Of a DNA stretch of 64,000 nt, positions 3,252 to 27,210 are shown one piece after another. Source of the stretch: Acidobacteriaceae bacterium KBS 83 (lineage in GTDB: Bacteria; Acidobacteriota; Terriglobia; Terriglobales; Acidobacteriaceae). A program made the translations under genes and the position numbers. Below the pieces are notes generated by a model that searched no databases, was not told the DNA's origin, and saw only the letters and a program-made list of their open reading frames with translations. Numbering within the stretch: position 1 is the stretch's first letter; the number at the start of each line of letters is the position of its first letter. The stretch is from positions 62,001 through 126,000 of the forward strand of contig KB906738.1 of assembly GCA_000381585.1 (NCBI GenBank), written 5' to 3'.

Positions 3252-4715
3252 TCAGCTCGCCTCCGCCAGGCGCGAGCCATCCTCGGACATATCGTCACGC
3301 TGGAGCGATTCGAGGGAGCGGCCTTCGGCGGCGACACCCCAGATAGCCTGCACTGTGCCGGCGGCGATCATGGCAACGGCTCCAAGCCCATAACCGAAGA
3401 ACAGCAGACTGCGCGATCCGCTGCCGATGATTCGCCCGAAGAGGAATGGCCCGGCAATGCCGCCGAGCAGGGTGCCTGCAGTGTAGAAAAGGGCGATGGC
3501 TGACGCGCGCACTTCCTGAGGGAAGAGTTCGCTGGCACTGAGATAAGCGGCGCTGGCGCTGGCGGATGCGACAAAAAAGACAACCGTCCAGCATGCGATC
3601 TGCGTGGATGCGTTGAGACGCCCGAGCCAGAACAGCCACCCGGCGAGCAACAAAAGCAATCCTGAAAGCATGAAGGTGCCGCCGGTCATGGTGCGTCGTC
3701 CGACGGTATCGAAGAAGCGGCCGAGGAGTAGCGGACCAAGGAAATTCGCGAGCGCAATCGGCAGGAAGGCATAGCCGACGCGGCTGGCGGATGCTCCGTA
3801 GTAGCGCAGCAACACCAGAGTGAGAGAAAAGAAGACCGAGTTGTAAAAGAGAGCCTGCGCGGTCATGAGGCACATGGTGACGGCGGCGCGGCGTCGATAA
3901 CGTCCGATGAGCAGGCGGATGGTCTCAATCAGGCCTTCTCGGTTACGAAGTATTGAGGGGATCGGAATAAGGGAAGGCATGTACTCCCGGCCTTCCATCC
4001 TGGATAAGACCTGGGCGGCTTCGTTGACGCGTCCTCGTGCTAAAAGCCAACGCGGGCTTTCCGGCACATTGCGGCGAAGGATGAGCACCAACAGGCCGAT
4101 CGGTAATCCCGACAAATATGCGACACGCCAGCCCAGCGCCAAGGGAAAGAGGCGCCCGGAAAGGAAGGTGCTGGAGACCAGTGACCCGATCACGATTCCA
4201 ATCCAAAAGGTGCCGTTGATGGCGAGGTCTACGCGGCCGCGTAGTCGCGCCGGGATGAGTTCATCGATTGCCGAGTTCACCGCGGCATACTCGCCGCCGA
4301 TACCGGCTCCCGTGAAGAACCGGCAGGCGGTGAAACTTGCGAGGTTCCATGCCATGCCGGTTGCGGTAGTTGCCGCCAGATATCCGATTAGCGTCCAGAA
4401 GAAAATCTTCCTTCTTCCGAAGCGATCAGCCAGAACGCCCAACACGATGGAGCCGAGGACAGCACCCGCGAGGTAGATCGAAGAGCTGAGGCCTAGCTGC
4501 GCGTCTGAGAGAGACAGACCCTGGTGGGACTTGAGAGCGCCGGCGAGCGAGCCGCCGAGGCTGCCTTCCAGGCCGTCGAGGAGCCATGTGATGCCGAGCG
4601 CAAGAACGAAGCGGAGGTGCCATCGACTCCAGGTCAGCGCATCCATTCGCCTGGGGATTGTCAGTGAGTCCGGGGCTGTTGGCTCCTCCCGGAGGAGAAT
4701 GGAGTTGGCTGACAT
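3252..4715 (-). CDS. MFS transporter, metabolite:H+ symporter type
   Basis: 487 residues with twelve predicted membrane helices. It carries the MFS loop 2-3 signature GVLADRFGRRKIFF, the helix 4 motif GAGIGGEYAAVNSAIDEL, and after helix 6 the sugar-porter-like PESPRWLLARGR. The second half repeats the pattern (LGRFFDTVGRRTMTGG). This combination fits the sugar/organic-acid porter branch (SV2/AAHS-like). It is an inner membrane permease whose substrate cannot be told from sequence. The gene converges with the methyltransferase-like gene (10-base gap). The neighbouring radical SAM gene lies 42 bases upstream on the same strand. A start at 4715 places about 25 cytosolic residues before helix 1. 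Confidence 0.9.
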   Translation of the reverse strand: MSANSILLREEPTAPDSLTIPRRMDALTWSRWHLRFVLALGITWLLDGLEGSLGGSLAGALKSHQGLSLSDAQLGLSSSIYLAGAVLGSIVLGVLADRFGRRKIFFWTLIGYLAATTATGMAWNLASFTACRFFTGAGIGGEYAAVNSAIDELIPARLRGRVDLAINGTFWIGIVIGSLVSSTFLSGRLFPLALGWRVAYLSGLPIGLLVLILRRNVPESPRWLLARGRVNEAAQVLSRMEGREYMPSLIPIPSILRNREGLIETIRLLIGRYRRRAAVTMCLMTAQALFYNSVFFSLTLVLLRYYGASASRVGYAFLPIALANFLGPLLLGRFFDTVGRRTMTGGTFMLSGLLLLLAGWLFWLGRLNASTQIACWTVVFFVASASASAAYLSASELFPQEVRASAIALFYTAGTLLGGIAGPFLFGRIIGSGSRSLLFFGYGLGAVAMIAAGTVQAIWGVAAEGRSLESLQRDDMSEDGSRLAEAS

Positions 4716-20707: not shown

Positions 20708-21238
20708 CGTTCTCCTCCTTCGGTACGATTCGCCAAAAAAAAAGGTTTTGACTGCGGCTAAGGAGTCGGCCTGTCCTGGAAGGCCGAACACCGCCAAAGT
20801 TCAGGCCCCAATCCAAATCAAAACGAGACCTTGTCCGAAGACGCTTATAAGCTCCTTACAGTGGGCGAGGCAGTCAGAGCAAACTATGATCAGCGTTTTG
20901 ACACATACGCCTTTGCACGGGGAATTCGGGATTACTCTCCGCAAAGGGATGCTTCAGCAACGCAGAAGATAACACCCACCCCGATTTACGGGATACTGGC
21001 AAAACTCACAGAGACGTTTACCGAACAGCGATGAGAAGGATATTCCCACTCTGCGTTCGTCGAGGTGGTTATGTTCGCTGGGTTCAGGTGCTATTCATGA
21101 CCCAGGCGGTGAGCCTTCCGTGGCGCAACAGCGCTCATGAGGTTGATGTTCCAGATCCAGGCATGCCTACAACATTATGTGTATAAGCGACATGCGTTTC
21201 CGTGCCATGTCTGGTTCCGTGGTATAGAACTCTGAACA
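20708..21238. other. Intergenic region, nothing recognised
   Basis: About 530 bases between divergent genes. It contains a run of nine A residues at about 20735-20743 and a locally AT-rich stretch before the GTG at 21239, with no clear -35/-10 pair. A 67-codon frame (20831-21034) was considered and not accepted. No tRNA or other RNA gene was seen. Confidence 0.4.
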
Positions 21239-22252
21239 GTGCTCAATTTCGAGAAAACCCGAACGGAATTCCAGGAGATACTCGCCAAGCCCATTCGCGA
21301 ACTCGGGCTCAAGCTCGAGGGTTCTCCGCTCGAACGATTCGTTCAGCAGCTTTATCGCGAACTGGAAGCCAAAGGCCTCCACAAGTTCCGTCCGCCTTGT
21401 TATCTCACCGATGAATGGGGATGTCCCTCTGGCGAACCCGTCATCGGCATTCCGTTTTATCTGGCCAATTCGGACCTGGCACAGCTTGAGCGCGATATGA
21501 ACGACCTGGAAGACGCTCGCGAGATCATGATGTACATGCGTCATGAGGCCGGACACGCCTTCAATTACGCATACCAGCTATACAAGGCGGCGGAGTGGCG
21601 CGATCTCTTCGGTCCGTTTCGCCGCGCCTATCGCGACAACTATCGTCCCATCCCGTTTTCGCGGAAGTTTGTTCGCCACATGGCCGGGTGGTACGCGCAG
21701 AAGCATCCGGATGAGGATTTCGCCGAAACGTTTGCGGTCTGGCTCACGCCTCGCTCGCAGTGGCGAAAGCGCTACAAAGGTTGGGGTGCGCTGGCCAAGC
21801 TCCAATACGTCGATCGCGTGGCGCGAAGAGTCGGAAATGTCGACCCTATCCGGCGCCGCGGCCGCACCGACATCACCGTCGATGAGATGGAATCGACGGT
21901 CGGCGAATTCTATCGTCTCAGCCTGCCGGAGGAGATTCCGCTGCAGGAACTCGCGCTCGATACCGACCTGGCGGACATCTTCAATATTTCCCGCAAGCGA
22001 AGCAATGGCGTGCGCCCCGCGCATGAGATGTTGCGTGAGCACCGCAAGCTCATTGTCGACAAGGTTGCGTATTGGAGCGGCGTGCAGCGTCCGATCGTGA
22101 AGCGACTGGTGGAAGCTATTTGCAAGCGCGTTGAAGATTTGGGATTGCGCGTGGACGTTCAACGCGAGTCTGATTACCTCACGGAGTTCACGGTGTACAC
22201 AACCGCACTCTCAATGAATTACCTGGTCCGTGGAAAGTTCATTCACCCCTGA
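21239..22252 (+). CDS. Putative zinc metallopeptidase paired with an ATP-grasp ligase
   Basis: 337 residues from a GTG start. The zincin motif HEAGH lies at residues 102-106 in the context MMYMRHEAGHAFNYAY, and a third ligand is likely Glu163 in EDFAETFAVWL, the gluzincin-like spacing. Conserved features include RPPCYLTDEWGCPSGEPVIG near residues 51-70. There is no signal peptide or membrane segment, so it should act in the cytoplasm. The next gene starts 39 bases downstream on the same strand and encodes an ATP-grasp ligase. The pair recurs in families annotated as 'putative zinc-binding metallopeptidase' with a D-Ala-D-Ala ligase-like partner. Its substrate is not known to me; peptide processing is inferred from the motif. 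Confidence 0.82.
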   Translation: MLNFEKTRTEFQEILAKPIRELGLKLEGSPLERFVQQLYRELEAKGLHKFRPPCYLTDEWGCPSGEPVIGIPFYLANSDLAQLERDMNDLEDAREIMMYMRHEAGHAFNYAYQLYKAAEWRDLFGPFRRAYRDNYRPIPFSRKFVRHMAGWYAQKHPDEDFAETFAVWLTPRSQWRKRYKGWGALAKLQYVDRVARRVGNVDPIRRRGRTDITVDEMESTVGEFYRLSLPEEIPLQELALDTDLADIFNISRKRSNGVRPAHEMLREHRKLIVDKVAYWSGVQRPIVKRLVEAICKRVEDLGLRVDVQRESDYLTEFTVYTTALSMNYLVRGKFIHP

Positions 22253-22291
22253 GGCGCGCCGGCAGCGGCCGTCACTCGGATTGGAGTTCGC

Positions 22292-23341
22292 ATGACTGCA
22301 ACAAAGTTGAAGGTTTCCGTGCTGTACGACGTGTGGGAAGAAGAACCCGTTGAAGTGCAGGAAGAAGTTCCTGCACCGCGCAAACGCAAAGGGCAGACGA
22401 AACGCAGGAAGAAGGTGGTAAAGCAGGACCGCGAAGAGATCTTCGAAGCCCTGGAGAAGCTGGGTCATGAGCCGTCGTATTACATCCTCGACGGCCGCCG
22501 ACAATCACTGCTCGGACTGGCCAAGTGTGGCGCCGATCTCGTTTTCAACCTCACGGAATCCTATGCGGGCGATGACACCAAGGAGATGAACGTCACTGCA
22601 TTTCTGGATATGCTGGAGATCCCTTACACCGGCTCGGGGCCGCACGCGAACGTTCTTGCGCAGGACAAATCGATCGCCAAGAAGATGTTCGCCTTTTACG
22701 GGATTCAGTCGCCCTACTTCGCGACGTCCTATCGCGGCGCTCTCGACCACGCACATGACATCTCGTTTCCGCTGATCGTGAAACCCACCTCCGAAGATGG
22801 ATCCATCGGCATCGATGCCGCTGCCGTGGTTACCAATGTGAAGGAGTTGATGGAGCGCGTCCACTATATACAGACCGAATTTGATTCTCCTGCGTTGATC
22901 GAGGAGTACATCGAGGGACGTGAGATCTACGCCGCCATCCTTGGCAGTTACGAAAACGCATATGCGCTTCCGCTTGTAGAGCTTGATCTTTCCAAGCTTC
23001 CGAAGGGCATGCCCAGGATCGCGAGCCAGGATGTGAAATTCGAGAAGAACACGGAAGCCTATAAGCTGACGAAGTCTGCGATCGCCGAAGACCTCGACGA
23101 AGAAACCACCACCAAGCTCAGCGAGATCGCGCTCAAGGCTTATCGCGCCGTCAAGCTTCGCGATTATGGGCGCATCGACATGCGCGTATCGAGCAAGGGC
23201 GAGGTGTATGTCATCGAAGCGAATCCGAACCCATGGCTCTCCAGCGGACAGGAGTTTGCCATGGCCGCGAAGAAATCCGGTCTCTCCTATACCCAAATGA
23301 TCGGGGAGATCGTGGATCTTGCGATGGCTCGGCACGCGTGA
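22292..23341 (+). CDS. ATP-grasp ligase, D-Ala-D-Ala ligase-like
   Basis: 349 residues. An unusual N-terminal part (residues 15-50) has acidic then very basic stretches (EEEPVEVQEEVPAPRKRKGQ, then TKRRKKVVKQD). The ATP-grasp core follows: ADLVFNLTESYAGDD and LEIPYTGSGPHANVLAQDKS (pre-ATP-grasp, as in Ddl), PLIVKPTSEDGSIGID (phosphate-binding loop), ALIEEYIEGREIYAAILGS and VIEANPNPWLSS (metal ligands Glu and Asn). It lacks the complete Ddl substrate signature and is not the housekeeping Ddl. Such enzymes form amide bonds by acyl-phosphate chemistry. Together with the upstream metallopeptidase it suggests a small peptide or peptide-modification pathway; the substrate is unknown. Confidence 0.85.
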   Translation: MTATKLKVSVLYDVWEEEPVEVQEEVPAPRKRKGQTKRRKKVVKQDREEIFEALEKLGHEPSYYILDGRRQSLLGLAKCGADLVFNLTESYAGDDTKEMNVTAFLDMLEIPYTGSGPHANVLAQDKSIAKKMFAFYGIQSPYFATSYRGALDHAHDISFPLIVKPTSEDGSIGIDAAAVVTNVKELMERVHYIQTEFDSPALIEEYIEGREIYAAILGSYENAYALPLVELDLSKLPKGMPRIASQDVKFEKNTEAYKLTKSAIAEDLDEETTTKLSEIALKAYRAVKLRDYGRIDMRVSSKGEVYVIEANPNPWLSSGQEFAMAAKKSGLSYTQMIGEIVDLAMARHA

Positions 23342-23392: not shown

Positions 23393-24262
23393 TCATTGAA
23401 TGTATTTGATGAGCAGCACGTCATTTCCTTTTTCTCCGTAGAACAACTCATCGACCAGATTCTTGGCCAACAAAATCCCATATCCGCCCGGACGCATGCC
23501 CTGCGCCTCGCGGTGCTTCAGATGACGCAAAGGATCATCCTGCGGGCTGTTCACAGCGGTATCCAGATTTTCCTTTAAGGAGAATCCTTCGCCCGGATCC
23601 TTGATGCGGATGAGCACCACGCGGCGCGCGCGGAGGTAGGCAATCTCGATACGCCGTTCGGGATCGAACTTCCCGCCATGCTCCATCGCGTTGAGCAGCA
23701 TTTCTCTGGACGCTGTCGCTACTTTATCCTCTTCAATTTCCGGCAAATCCAGAAATTCGCGCACGAACTGCTGCAGGCGATTGGCCGTAGATACATCACA
23801 ACGCACCGAAAGACGTATCCACGCATCCGTCCCGGAGAGCATTTCAATCGCTTCTTCCCAGGCAGGACTCTCCATCGCCAGTTGCAGCGCCTCCTCCAGA
23901 GCTTGTGTCGAAAGCGGCTTTGTAACATAACCGAAAGCTCGCGCGCGGATCGCGGCGATCACGTCCGCGGGCGTACTCTTGTCCGCAACGATGATCAGAC
24001 GAGTATGTGGCCTAACCAGCTGTACCTTGCGAAGCAGTTCAGCATTTTCCCGGCCTGAACTGTCCTGGTCGGTGATAACAAGGTCGAAAGCAGACTTCTC
24101 CACCAGCGCAAGCGCTTCCTCGCTATCCTGCGCGCACTCCAGCTTCCACGAGGACAGAACTCTCGACACCGCACTCGTCACCTGCGAGTCCGAACACCCA
24201 ACCACAAGTACCGTTTTCTGCAACTGCGAATTAGCGTGGGTCATGAGAATCGGATGGACCAT
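23393..24262 (-). CDS. Response regulator receiver fused to an RsbW-like ATPase
   Basis: 289 residues. Residues about 16-130 form a receiver domain with phospho-acceptor Asp65 (FDLVITDQD), Thr/Ala switch and Lys115 (GYVTKPL). Residues 145-289 are a GHKL ATPase of the anti-sigma type: N-box with Asn191 (REMLLNAMEHGG), G1 with Asp222 (IRIKDPGEGF), and G2 GMRPGGYGILLAKNLVDEL. A partner-switching module is likely, in which phosphorylation controls an RsbW-like serine kinase that binds a sigma factor or anti-anti-sigma protein. No such partner is next to it. A second Met at residue 7 is a possible start. It converges on the ATP-grasp gene. Confidence 0.88.
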   Translation of the reverse strand: MVHPILMTHANSQLQKTVLVVGCSDSQVTSAVSRVLSSWKLECAQDSEEALALVEKSAFDLVITDQDSSGRENAELLRKVQLVRPHTRLIIVADKSTPADVIAAIRARAFGYVTKPLSTQALEEALQLAMESPAWEEAIEMLSGTDAWIRLSVRCDVSTANRLQQFVREFLDLPEIEEDKVATASREMLLNAMEHGGKFDPERRIEIAYLRARRVVLIRIKDPGEGFSLKENLDTAVNSPQDDPLRHLKHREAQGMRPGGYGILLAKNLVDELFYGEKGNDVLLIKYIQ

Positions 24263-25033: not shown

Positions 25034-25308
25034 ACCTGGATAGTAGCGCGATGCGACGCCGATCTGCCCCCTCCGTAACAGAGCGGCATTACTGCGAGAT
25101 TACTAATTGCAGGTCTGCACATCCGGTGTTGCAGGTTATAAACAGCAAAACGCACAGACTCTTCAGAAGCGCCAAAAGCCTCAAGCAGGTGCGAGGAAGC
25201 GCCCTGGAGAGCCGATCGTTCCGCCCATACAGGCGGACCCCCTTGCGGTTGCGGTCTTGTAGGACTTGCGTCAAGGTTCATGCTGTTCGAGTTGTGAGAG
25301 GCCGCATC

Positions 25309-27210
25309 ATGCCGCTGGGACAGCCCGGAAGTCCAAGGTCCATGCGCCCACCGGGCGCTGATCAAGCGGCCGAGATCCCTGTTCGCACGACGCTCGATGT
25401 GCTGCTGCTGGAAAGCACAGTGCTGTGGGCGAGCGCCACGGCGCTGCTGGGGGACGAGGGGCGTCTTTCCTATAGCGACCTGATGGTGCGCGCACAGAAT
25501 ATTGCTGCGGAGCTGCGGCGGAAGGGGATGCGGCACGGCGACCTGGTGGGTGTGGTCGGTCTGCGTACCTTCAGCTCGATCAGCAGCATTCTTGGAGTCT
25601 TGTTCGCAGGCGGCGTGTATGTGCCGTTCGATGTGCACGGTCTTTCTTCGGAGAAGCTGGCACGCCAACTGGACGAGAGCGCGATCCGGCTGCTGGTGAC
25701 GGACCGCACGGACAGCGCGGGCATGGCGCTGCCGTGGGCACGCCGGACCACGGTCATCGATGCATCGACCGTCGAACGAGAGTTCATGCCGGTCTTCCGC
25801 GAGTTGAAGCTGTCACATCGGTTGCCAGATGATCCGGCTGCGGTGGTCTTCAACGCTGCTGGCCATGGCGTGCTGGTGACACACGCGGGCATTGTGCGGC
25901 TGGTGACCACGGCAGCGCTGATGGAGTTTCGATCTGCGGACACGGTGCTGATGCACTCCGGCGCGCAGGAGCATACGTTCCAGATGGAGTTGTGGGGTCC
26001 ACTGCTGGCGGGCGGCACCGTCGCTCTTGCGCCGCAGGGCTGGATCAGCTCTGCGATGCCTGCGCATGAGTATGCGAGGGTGATGCGACGATTCCGCGTC
26101 TCCGCGATCTGTGCGAGGCCAGCGTTGCTCGAGGAACTGGCAAAAGATCCGCTTGCGCCGCTTGATCAGGTGCAGCAGGCGGTGGTGAACGCGGCGGATC
26201 TGGATCCGGCGCATCTGGAAGCAACGCTGCGGCGCTCGGGCAATTGCCGGCATGCCATGCGAGTCACGGGTGGGCTTGGCGCGGCGGAAACCACGAGCTA
26301 TGCGGTGAGTGTGCGGGTGAATGTTGAGGAGCCGGGGGCTGCGGTGCCGTTGCCGGGCAGTGGCGCGATGGTCGTTCTACCGAATGGGCACGAGGCTGCG
26401 CCGGGTGCGCTGGGCGCGCTTGCGATCACTGGCGATGCTCTGGCGATCGGCTATCTGGGTCAGCCAGAAGCGACGATGTCGGCCTTTCCCGAGGCGCAGC
26501 GGGAAAACAGCCAACGGCTGCGATGCTTTCGCCTGCCGGTGCAGGCGACCCGGATGCCGGATGGGAGTCTGCTGACCGGTCCCGCTGCTGTGGCAGCGGC
26601 TGCGGCTGTGAAGGCAGGCGAGGCGAAGAAGTCGACTGCCGAAAAGGTGGAAGCGCTGCTGTTGCAGCATCCGCTGGTGCGAGAGTGCGTAGCGGTGGCG
26701 CCTGCACCTGACGAACGGGTGAGTTGCGTCTTTGCGACGCTGAAGCAGGGGCAGGATCCGCGCGCCGAGCGAGCGCTGCGTGAACATCTGGAGAGCCATC
26801 TTCCGCGGGAGTTGCAACCGGCAGCTCTGGTATTGCTGCCGCGCATTCCGTCGAACGGAGATGGCAAACCGGACCTTGTTCACCTGACAGAACAATGCGA
26901 GGCTGTGCTGCGGCGTTTTACAGGCGACCCGCCGCCTGAGGTGCGGCCGGAACGGCAGGTCGACGCCGTCCGCAGCATCTGGCAACGTCTGCTGCATCGT
27001 ATGCAGGTGGATCCGGATGAGGACTTTTACGCGAGTGGCGGCACGTCGGTGCAACGGATTCGTCTGTACGCGGAGCTGAACCAGCGATTTCCCGGCGCCT
27101 TCACGATGGCTGACCTACCCTCGCTGAACACCATTCGCAAGGTCGTCGATCATTTGAACAGCGATGTGGCGCGTGAACGCATGCTGGCAGCGGAGCATCG
27201 GGGTGCCTGA
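25309..27210 (+). CDS. NRPS-like adenylation-thiolation didomain protein with lost adenylation motifs
   Basis: The ATG at 25309 has GAGAGG nine bases upstream and gives 633 residues; the longer frame from 25051 has an unlikely arginine-rich prefix. Residues about 25-530 align with the ANL/adenylation fold (YSDLMVRAQNIAAELRRKGM, DLVGVVGLRTFSSISSILGV, GGVYVPFD for core A2). But A3, normally TSGSTGxPKG, reads VFNAAGHGVLVTH. The TGD of A7 and the GRxDxQVKxRGxRIE of A8 are missing, although the GK-x-D of A10 is partly kept (NGDGKPDL). Residues about 555-620 form a carrier domain with the phosphopantetheine Ser in DEDFYASGGTSVQRIRL. No condensation or thioesterase domain is present. The adenylation half is probably non-catalytic. 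Confidence 0.82.
   Translation: MPLGQPGSPRSMRPPGADQAAEIPVRTTLDVLLLESTVLWASATALLGDEGRLSYSDLMVRAQNIAAELRRKGMRHGDLVGVVGLRTFSSISSILGVLFAGGVYVPFDVHGLSSEKLARQLDESAIRLLVTDRTDSAGMALPWARRTTVIDASTVEREFMPVFRELKLSHRLPDDPAAVVFNAAGHGVLVTHAGIVRLVTTAALMEFRSADTVLMHSGAQEHTFQMELWGPLLAGGTVALAPQGWISSAMPAHEYARVMRRFRVSAICARPALLEELAKDPLAPLDQVQQAVVNAADLDPAHLEATLRRSGNCRHAMRVTGGLGAAETTSYAVSVRVNVEEPGAAVPLPGSGAMVVLPNGHEAAPGALGALAITGDALAIGYLGQPEATMSAFPEAQRENSQRLRCFRLPVQATRMPDGSLLTGPAAVAAAAAVKAGEAKKSTAEKVEALLLQHPLVRECVAVAPAPDERVSCVFATLKQGQDPRAERALREHLESHLPRELQPAALVLLPRIPSNGDGKPDLVHLTEQCEAVLRRFTGDPPPEVRPERQVDAVRSIWQRLLHRMQVDPDEDFYASGGTSVQRIRLYAELNQRFPGAFTMADLPSLNTIRKVVDHLNSDVARERMLAAEHRGA

Follow-up and report, generated by a model that had tools for sequence, protein, structure and literature searches.

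Two adjacent genes of Acidobacteriaceae bacterium KBS 83, called A and B here, may form a ligase-peptidase module that makes and cuts one amide-linked product. This is our best explanation of the locus, held with a little less than even confidence. In the manner of a D-Ala:D-Ala ligase (Ddl), B would form an acyl phosphate from a carboxylate at the expense of ATP and link the activated carboxylate to an amine, acting on substrates other than D-alanine. A would cut the product of B, for trimming, substrate supply or reversal of the ligation. The conserved pairing of the genes, the conservation of their catalytic residues and the loss of Ddl sequence features in B are supported directly; the reaction classes we infer.

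The window, i.e. the whole stretch of DNA analysed, comprises 64,000 nucleotides of contig KB906738.1, and the features of the locus are listed in Table 1. The original prediction described a cytosolic HEAGH protein and a Ddl-like enzyme 39 bases apart on one strand, and coordinates, Pfam matches and hydropathy agree with this. The short gap is consistent with A and B lying on a single transcript.

Table 1. Features of the A-B locus (positions in the window)
Feature	Position	Strand	Basis or remark
Conserved block TGGTATAGAACTCTGA (TGGTATAGAACTCT over 21220-21238)	21220..21235	+	Comparison of relatives; ends 3 bases 5' of the GTG of A
Gene A, putative soluble zinc peptidase (Peptidase_Mx, PF15887), 337 aa	21239..22252	+	GTG start; Pfam match
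HEAGH motif of A, residues 102-106	21542..21556	+	Alignment of 69 A proteins
EDFAETF motif of A, residues 159-165	21713..21733	+	Alignment of 69 A proteins
A-B intergenic gap, 39 bases	22253..22291	+	Open reading frame coordinates; 11-252 bases in relatives
Gene B, Ddl-like putative ATP-grasp ligase, 349 aa	22292..23341	+	Under all Ddl cut-offs shown
Acidic-then-basic loop of B, ~residues 14-45, strand 1 to helix 1	22331..22426	+	Charge pattern, pLDDT
EANPNP motif of B, residues 309-314	23216..23233	+	Alignment of 62 B proteins; own Ddl reads EINTMPGFTSISM there
Receiver-ATPase gene	23393-24262	-	Converges on B

Gene A encodes a putative soluble zinc peptidase

The A protein passed the gathering cut-off of Pfam family PF15887 (Peptidase_Mx; 36.1 bits, cut-off 27), which Pfam labels as putative, and stayed under that of PF15890 (Peptidase_Mx1; 15.3 bits, cut-off 25.6). 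Its sole NCBIfam match, a lipoprotein family, was far under the cut-off (16.6 bits, cut-off 75). The hallmark of Peptidase_Mx, HExxH with a downstream acidic residue, is present in A as HExGH and EDxAExF: H102, E103, G105 and H106 as well as E159, D160, A162, E163 and F165 were invariant in 69/69 aligned A proteins (69 of 74 sequences, five of 300 residues or less being left out). The probable third zinc ligand lies within EDFAETF, at E159 or E163. A has no membrane-type hydrophobic stretch (highest mean hydropathy over 19 residues, 0.63), and we regard it as a putative soluble zinc peptidase.

The protein consists of a catalytic core (~residues 14-200) followed by a C-terminal, mostly helical region. 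Its structure was predicted with a pLDDT of 79.3 and a pTM of 0.69. Foldseek found nothing with this model at E <= 0.001, and a sequence search of solved structures gave no convincing match (best E-value 0.071). Among the families that it lists, VIA-align placed ~residues 1-201 on LF-type metalloprotease domains (Z 9.3, rmsd 6.4, 158 residues), on PPEP-type metalloprotease domains (Z 7.7, rmsd 3.8, 133 residues) and, weakly, on structure 4l7a (Z 6.0, rmsd 6.0, 170 residues). We claim no relation to any of the three, since these scores are weak against the guidance values of the program, by which models without a clear match score 7 to 8 and helical ones higher. A thus shares with Peptidase_Mx and Peptidase_Mx1 (PF15887, PF15890; 4l7a) the HExxH core, the PF15887 score above cut-off and the weak 4l7a match, but it extends ~135 residues past the matched core and is soluble.

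Gene B belongs to a branch distinct from D-Ala ligases

The B protein matched the C-terminal Ddl domain (Dala_Dala_lig_C, PF07478) at 3.3e-30 (105.6 bits) and, like A, has no membrane-type hydrophobic stretch (highest 19-residue mean hydropathy 0.77). Its score against TIGR01205 (Ddl) was 124.8 bits, where the cut-off is 245.65, and that against NF002378 was 145.8 bits (cut-off 243). It was under the cut-off of every Ddl or Van model among the best 25 of 57 matches. The N-terminal Ddl domain, PF01820, gave no match to B up to E 1, whereas the genome's own Ddl scored 125.1 bits. That separate, true Ddl is encoded on another contig of the same genome, carries both Pfam domains (PF07478 and PF01820) and clears the cut-offs of TIGR01205 (360.1 bits against 245.65) and NF002528 (453.3 against 262).

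We aligned 62 of 67 B sequences, leaving out five of 300 residues or less. K126, K249, R294, D296, E309 and N311 were present in 62/62, and the own Ddl has the identical letters there. Its N-terminal GEHEVS loop is absent from the B relatives, and its acceptor motif EINTMPGFTSISM is replaced in them by EANPNP or a near variant (E309 and N311 in 62/62, N313 and P314 in 61/62). We take the (S/G)xExEVS-type loop and the EINTMPGFTSISM stretch of Ddl to be its D-Ala-binding sites. The predicted structure of B (pLDDT 84.6, pTM 0.83) was closest to Ddl structures, the best being P. aeruginosa DdlA (Z 29.0, rmsd 2.8, 291 residues).

B therefore resembles Ddl in overall fold, ATP-grasp catalytic residues and C-terminal domain, but it lacks PF01820, has a charged loop in place of the Ddl loop and EANPNP in place of the acceptor motif. 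A housekeeping D-Ala ligase, the identity against which the original prediction had been set, is ruled out for B by the sub-cut-off Ddl scores, the loss of loop and acceptor motif and the true Ddl elsewhere in the genome. B would catalyse a Ddl-type ligase reaction on substrates other than D-alanine.

B carries an N-terminal loop with a conserved charge order

The acidic-basic N-terminal segment noticed in the original prediction is real and occupies the site of the GEHEVS-type loop of the own Ddl. Its letters vary among relatives while the order of charges is conserved: in 42/44 B proteins encoded on the same strand as A (type I), the first half of the segment is acidic and the second basic. 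In 2000 rounds of shuffling within the segment, the pattern occurred in 8.8 of 44 on average and 18 at most, and its conservation thus goes beyond mere composition. It was kept in 6/6 when the type I proteins were thinned to six diverged ones, and occurred in 0/16 B proteins of other types, which were cut at fixed positions as controls. The test covered type I proteins with the anchor motif (three of 47 were dropped for want of it), and convergently encoded B proteins were outside it. Residues 16-41 of the B model had a pLDDT under 50; the segment probably forms a loop that is disordered and keeps its order of charges.

In type III B proteins, which are likewise paired with A (L079, L085, L204, L206, L211 and others), the charged loop is absent and a PP-containing motif, e.g. 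LVPP, stands at about the same place.

The A-B adjacency is conserved in two phyla

The original prediction had proposed counting conserved adjacency, and the pair proved not to be confined to this strain. A was found in 79/297 Acidobacteriota genomes (87 matches), and at least 65 of the 87 matches are directly adjoined by a B-like gene, 55 on the same strand and 10 convergent. The count comprises the 87 A matches and the B matches listed on A-bearing contigs and some others, and 65/87 is a lower bound. The same-strand genes lie directly downstream of A with gaps of 11-252 bases; eight of the convergent ones have gaps of 93-105 bases, and the other two came from tblastn of loci. Among 38 loci of the genome collection, B adjoins A in 37, and the remaining locus ends inside A. 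The other phylum is Eiseniibacteriota, judged by the label of locus L068, and there A was detected in 29/47 genomes; 26 of these 29 were examined for B (G345, G346 and G347 being left out), and 25/26 have it downstream on the same strand, the exception being an A at a contig end. With so few B-like genes in a background of thousands, we reason that chance alone would place one beside A in far fewer than one case.

A was called in 92 loci, and at least 76 of these have B nearby. The next commonest family occurs in 11/92, i.e. there is no third recurring gene family among open reading frames of 60 aa or more. Locus labels are rough, as the open reading frame caller misses genes: L036, L040 and L068 are labelled A-less though tblastn detects A, and B was missed in L205, L209 and L210 though detected by tblastn. 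The sets of loci behind the alignment, neighbourhood and distance results contain some genomes in duplicate (e.g. L061/L094 and L064/L101).

For 22/87 A matches no adjoining B was found. They include ten of family f28, two contig-end fragments (G258, G230) and three cases with a B-like gene 4-18 kb off on the same contig (G151, G134, G014). In the three f28 loci inspected, A stands alone in a common neighbourhood with a NuoN-like gene (one sequence, by eye). Conversely, at least three B-like genes have no adjoining A (G028, 58% identity; G199, 53%; G131, 45%). B-like matches at E <= 1e-15 occurred in 169/297 genomes as against 79/297 for A, a tally that takes in other ATP-grasp branches.

Distances among A proteins and among B proteins were correlated over 67 pairs (rho 0.85, uncorrected for shared descent). 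Two diverged pairs occur together in genome G042, with mutual identities of ~35% (A) and ~32% (B); within each pair the nearest relatives of A and B are of the same type, so the partners have not been swapped. In a quick tree, all 59 same-strand B sequences fell inside one group of 69 (SH-aLRT 95). Four convergent B sequences and one more formed a separate group (100), which joined a KamA-linked ATP-grasp sequence at 85. If this topology is true, A acquired an ATP-grasp neighbour more than once; the tree carries a warning of long branches. The conservation of A and B side by side in two phyla suggests that both probably act on a shared target molecule.

Start region, neighbouring genes and mobile context

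The first 14 bases of the block TGGTATAGAACTCTGA upstream of A recur in 8/13 relatives, either unchanged or with a single substitution, the other five being more diverged. A consensus promoter scan did not report the block, and no obvious ribosome-binding site precedes the GTG start. The block is a possible extended -10 element, and the message of A may be nearly leaderless. An Rfam scan of the window gave no family.

The receiver-ATPase gene converges on B and stands outside the A-B unit, as the original prediction had it, but the regulatory role that the prediction allowed it is rejected, because the gene is not conserved beside A-B. Among loci of 3-11 kb, tblastn matched it in the window's own two loci alone; in wider regions no more than two further matches were seen, both weak (22% and 27% identity) and within a few genes of A. 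Further along the window, the gene at 25051-27210 encodes a protein that stands alone and combines AMP-binding and phosphopantetheine-site domains; it gave no condensation domain match.

No PADLOC family matched A, B or the receiver-ATPase at E <= 0.1, and an anti-phage defence system was rejected on this ground. The only PHROGs match of B had an E-value of 0.045. A had no match in the plasmid and phage records searched, and a plasmid- or phage-borne cassette was likewise rejected. A scan of viral contigs with A gave four loci, and B is present in only one of them (L212). There a tRNA-Phe gene (3622-3696) separates the pair from the rest of the locus, which is why the pair is probably the host flank of an integrated element. 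The other three viral contigs (L213, 3965-4582; L214, 3539-4702; L215, about 4001-4567) have the catalytic core of A only; neither the C-terminal part of A nor B was matched. The L213 and L214 proteins exceed the Peptidase_Mx cut-off, and residues 1-94 of the latter match a PHROG labelled phosphoheptose isomerase.

Relatives of B stand beside enzymes of amino acid modification

In six Acidobacteriota loci (L147, L148, L150, L151, L157 and L158), two Ddl-like ATP-grasp genes lie in tandem with a GNAT-type gene behind them. Four of these loci (L148, L150, L151, L158) also have a lysine 2,3-aminomutase-like gene. The GNAT and aminomutase domains were confirmed in L148, in which the first tandem gene reads ELNPLP and the second EVNPNP. 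These loci have the appearance of a peptide-synthesis operon. The tandem genes are ~31-41% identical to B, and relatives on plasmids ~30-35%. The Thioflavicoccus plasmid relative lies beside genes for diaminobutyrate and diaminopropionate synthesis and KamA, that of Bradyrhizobium beside KamA, a gamma-glutamyltransferase and a 7TM protein, and that of Sinorhizobium near CapA.

The tandem genes and the Rhizobiales and Chromatiaceae plasmid relatives belong to the wider ATP-grasp group of B. They differ from B in having amino-acid-modifying enzymes of their own and no Peptidase_Mx beside them in the loci inspected, and in the quick tree the tandem genes fall outside the A-paired group. Their neighbourhoods support amino acid ligation for the wider group. 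They do not name the substrate of B, as they represent other branches and the genome of the window gave no KamA match.

In L163 (8566-10566) and L164 (2780-4750), an apparent methyltransferase domain is fused to a B-like ATP-grasp domain (by eye).

Possible functions of the pair

Modules of a ligase and a peptidase are already known, such as VanA/VanX, RimK/RimB and the cyanophycin enzymes. If B makes and A cuts one amide-linked product, a short non-ribosomal peptide would be the likeliest, because B is compact and Ddl-shaped and its relatives lie beside enzymes of beta- or diamino-acids. The best fold matches of A, weak as they are, are endopeptidases; they lean towards a polypeptide substrate and speak against this explanation. 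On balance, we consider a small peptide somewhat likelier as the product than a protein tail.

Alternatively, B could put a single amino acid or a short tag on the tail of a protein, from which A would remove it. Tubulin is a known case of ligation undone by a zinc peptidase: its tyrosine ligase is countered by detyrosinating metallopeptidases. The A-B pair would be analogous in that a ligase is functionally paired with a zinc peptidase undoing its product; the tubulin enzymes, however, are eukaryotic. The charged, probably disordered loop of B, with its conserved pattern, could tether a protein. Against this, B is compact and Ddl-shaped, a form known for small substrates, and no protein target is visible. 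Because A has its weak endopeptidase matches and no recurring gene beside the pair would supply an unusual substrate, we regard such editing as unlikely but still to be reckoned with. A more specific form of the idea, for which we would give slightly less, is a bacterial reversible modification of protein or peptide tails in which B writes an amino-acid tag and A erases it, with the charged loop either seizing the target or itself undergoing modification or cleavage by A.

In a reading of the RiPP maturation type, B would cross-link or extend a ribosomal precursor whose gene lies elsewhere, and A would take off its leader. A survey of graspetide loci describes two ATP-grasp branches that are tied to peptidases and whose precursors are undetectable in the loci (PMC8939145). 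Here, the A-B gaps are just 11-252 bases, the nearest structures of B are Ddl, and the lack of a third recurring family among open reading frames of 60 residues or more makes this maturation less likely; we rate it as quite improbable. That A and B are functionally unrelated and share at most a transcript fits the 22/87 A matches for which no adjoining B was found and the three viral contigs that carry the catalytic core of A without the ligase. We consider this marginally more improbable, as the two genes stay adjacent in both phyla and in diverged pairs, and also lie side by side in a second layout, the convergent one.

Editing of peptidoglycan precursors of the VanA/VanX type, in which B would make an altered D-Ala-D-X end and A destroy D-Ala-D-Ala, is suggested by the layout, since Van-type clusters likewise have a Ddl-like ligase adjoining a zinc peptidase, but is highly improbable and was rejected: A had no VanX/VanY-type Pfam match up to E 1, B reached no more than 93.1 bits against the Van-type models among its best 25 of 57 matches (cut-offs of 495 or more), and the Ddl loop and acceptor motif are missing from B.

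We found no description of the A-B or Peptidase_Mx pairing in the literature searched, to which the amidoligase survey by Iyer et al. (2009) did not belong, and we claim no priority. The accessible parts of PMC4431377, PMC8939145 and PMC2922099 do not describe the pair.

Ddl-like ATP-grasp proteins are readily annotated as D-Ala ligases by default; B represents a separate branch, which is tied in two phyla to an uncharacterised zinc peptidase and has no other recurring partners. Identifying the product of the make-and-cut module proposed here would show what Peptidase_Mx, a putative peptidase family in Pfam, does. It would also tell whether these bacteria keep a dedicated system for making and cutting a peptide or a protein tag.
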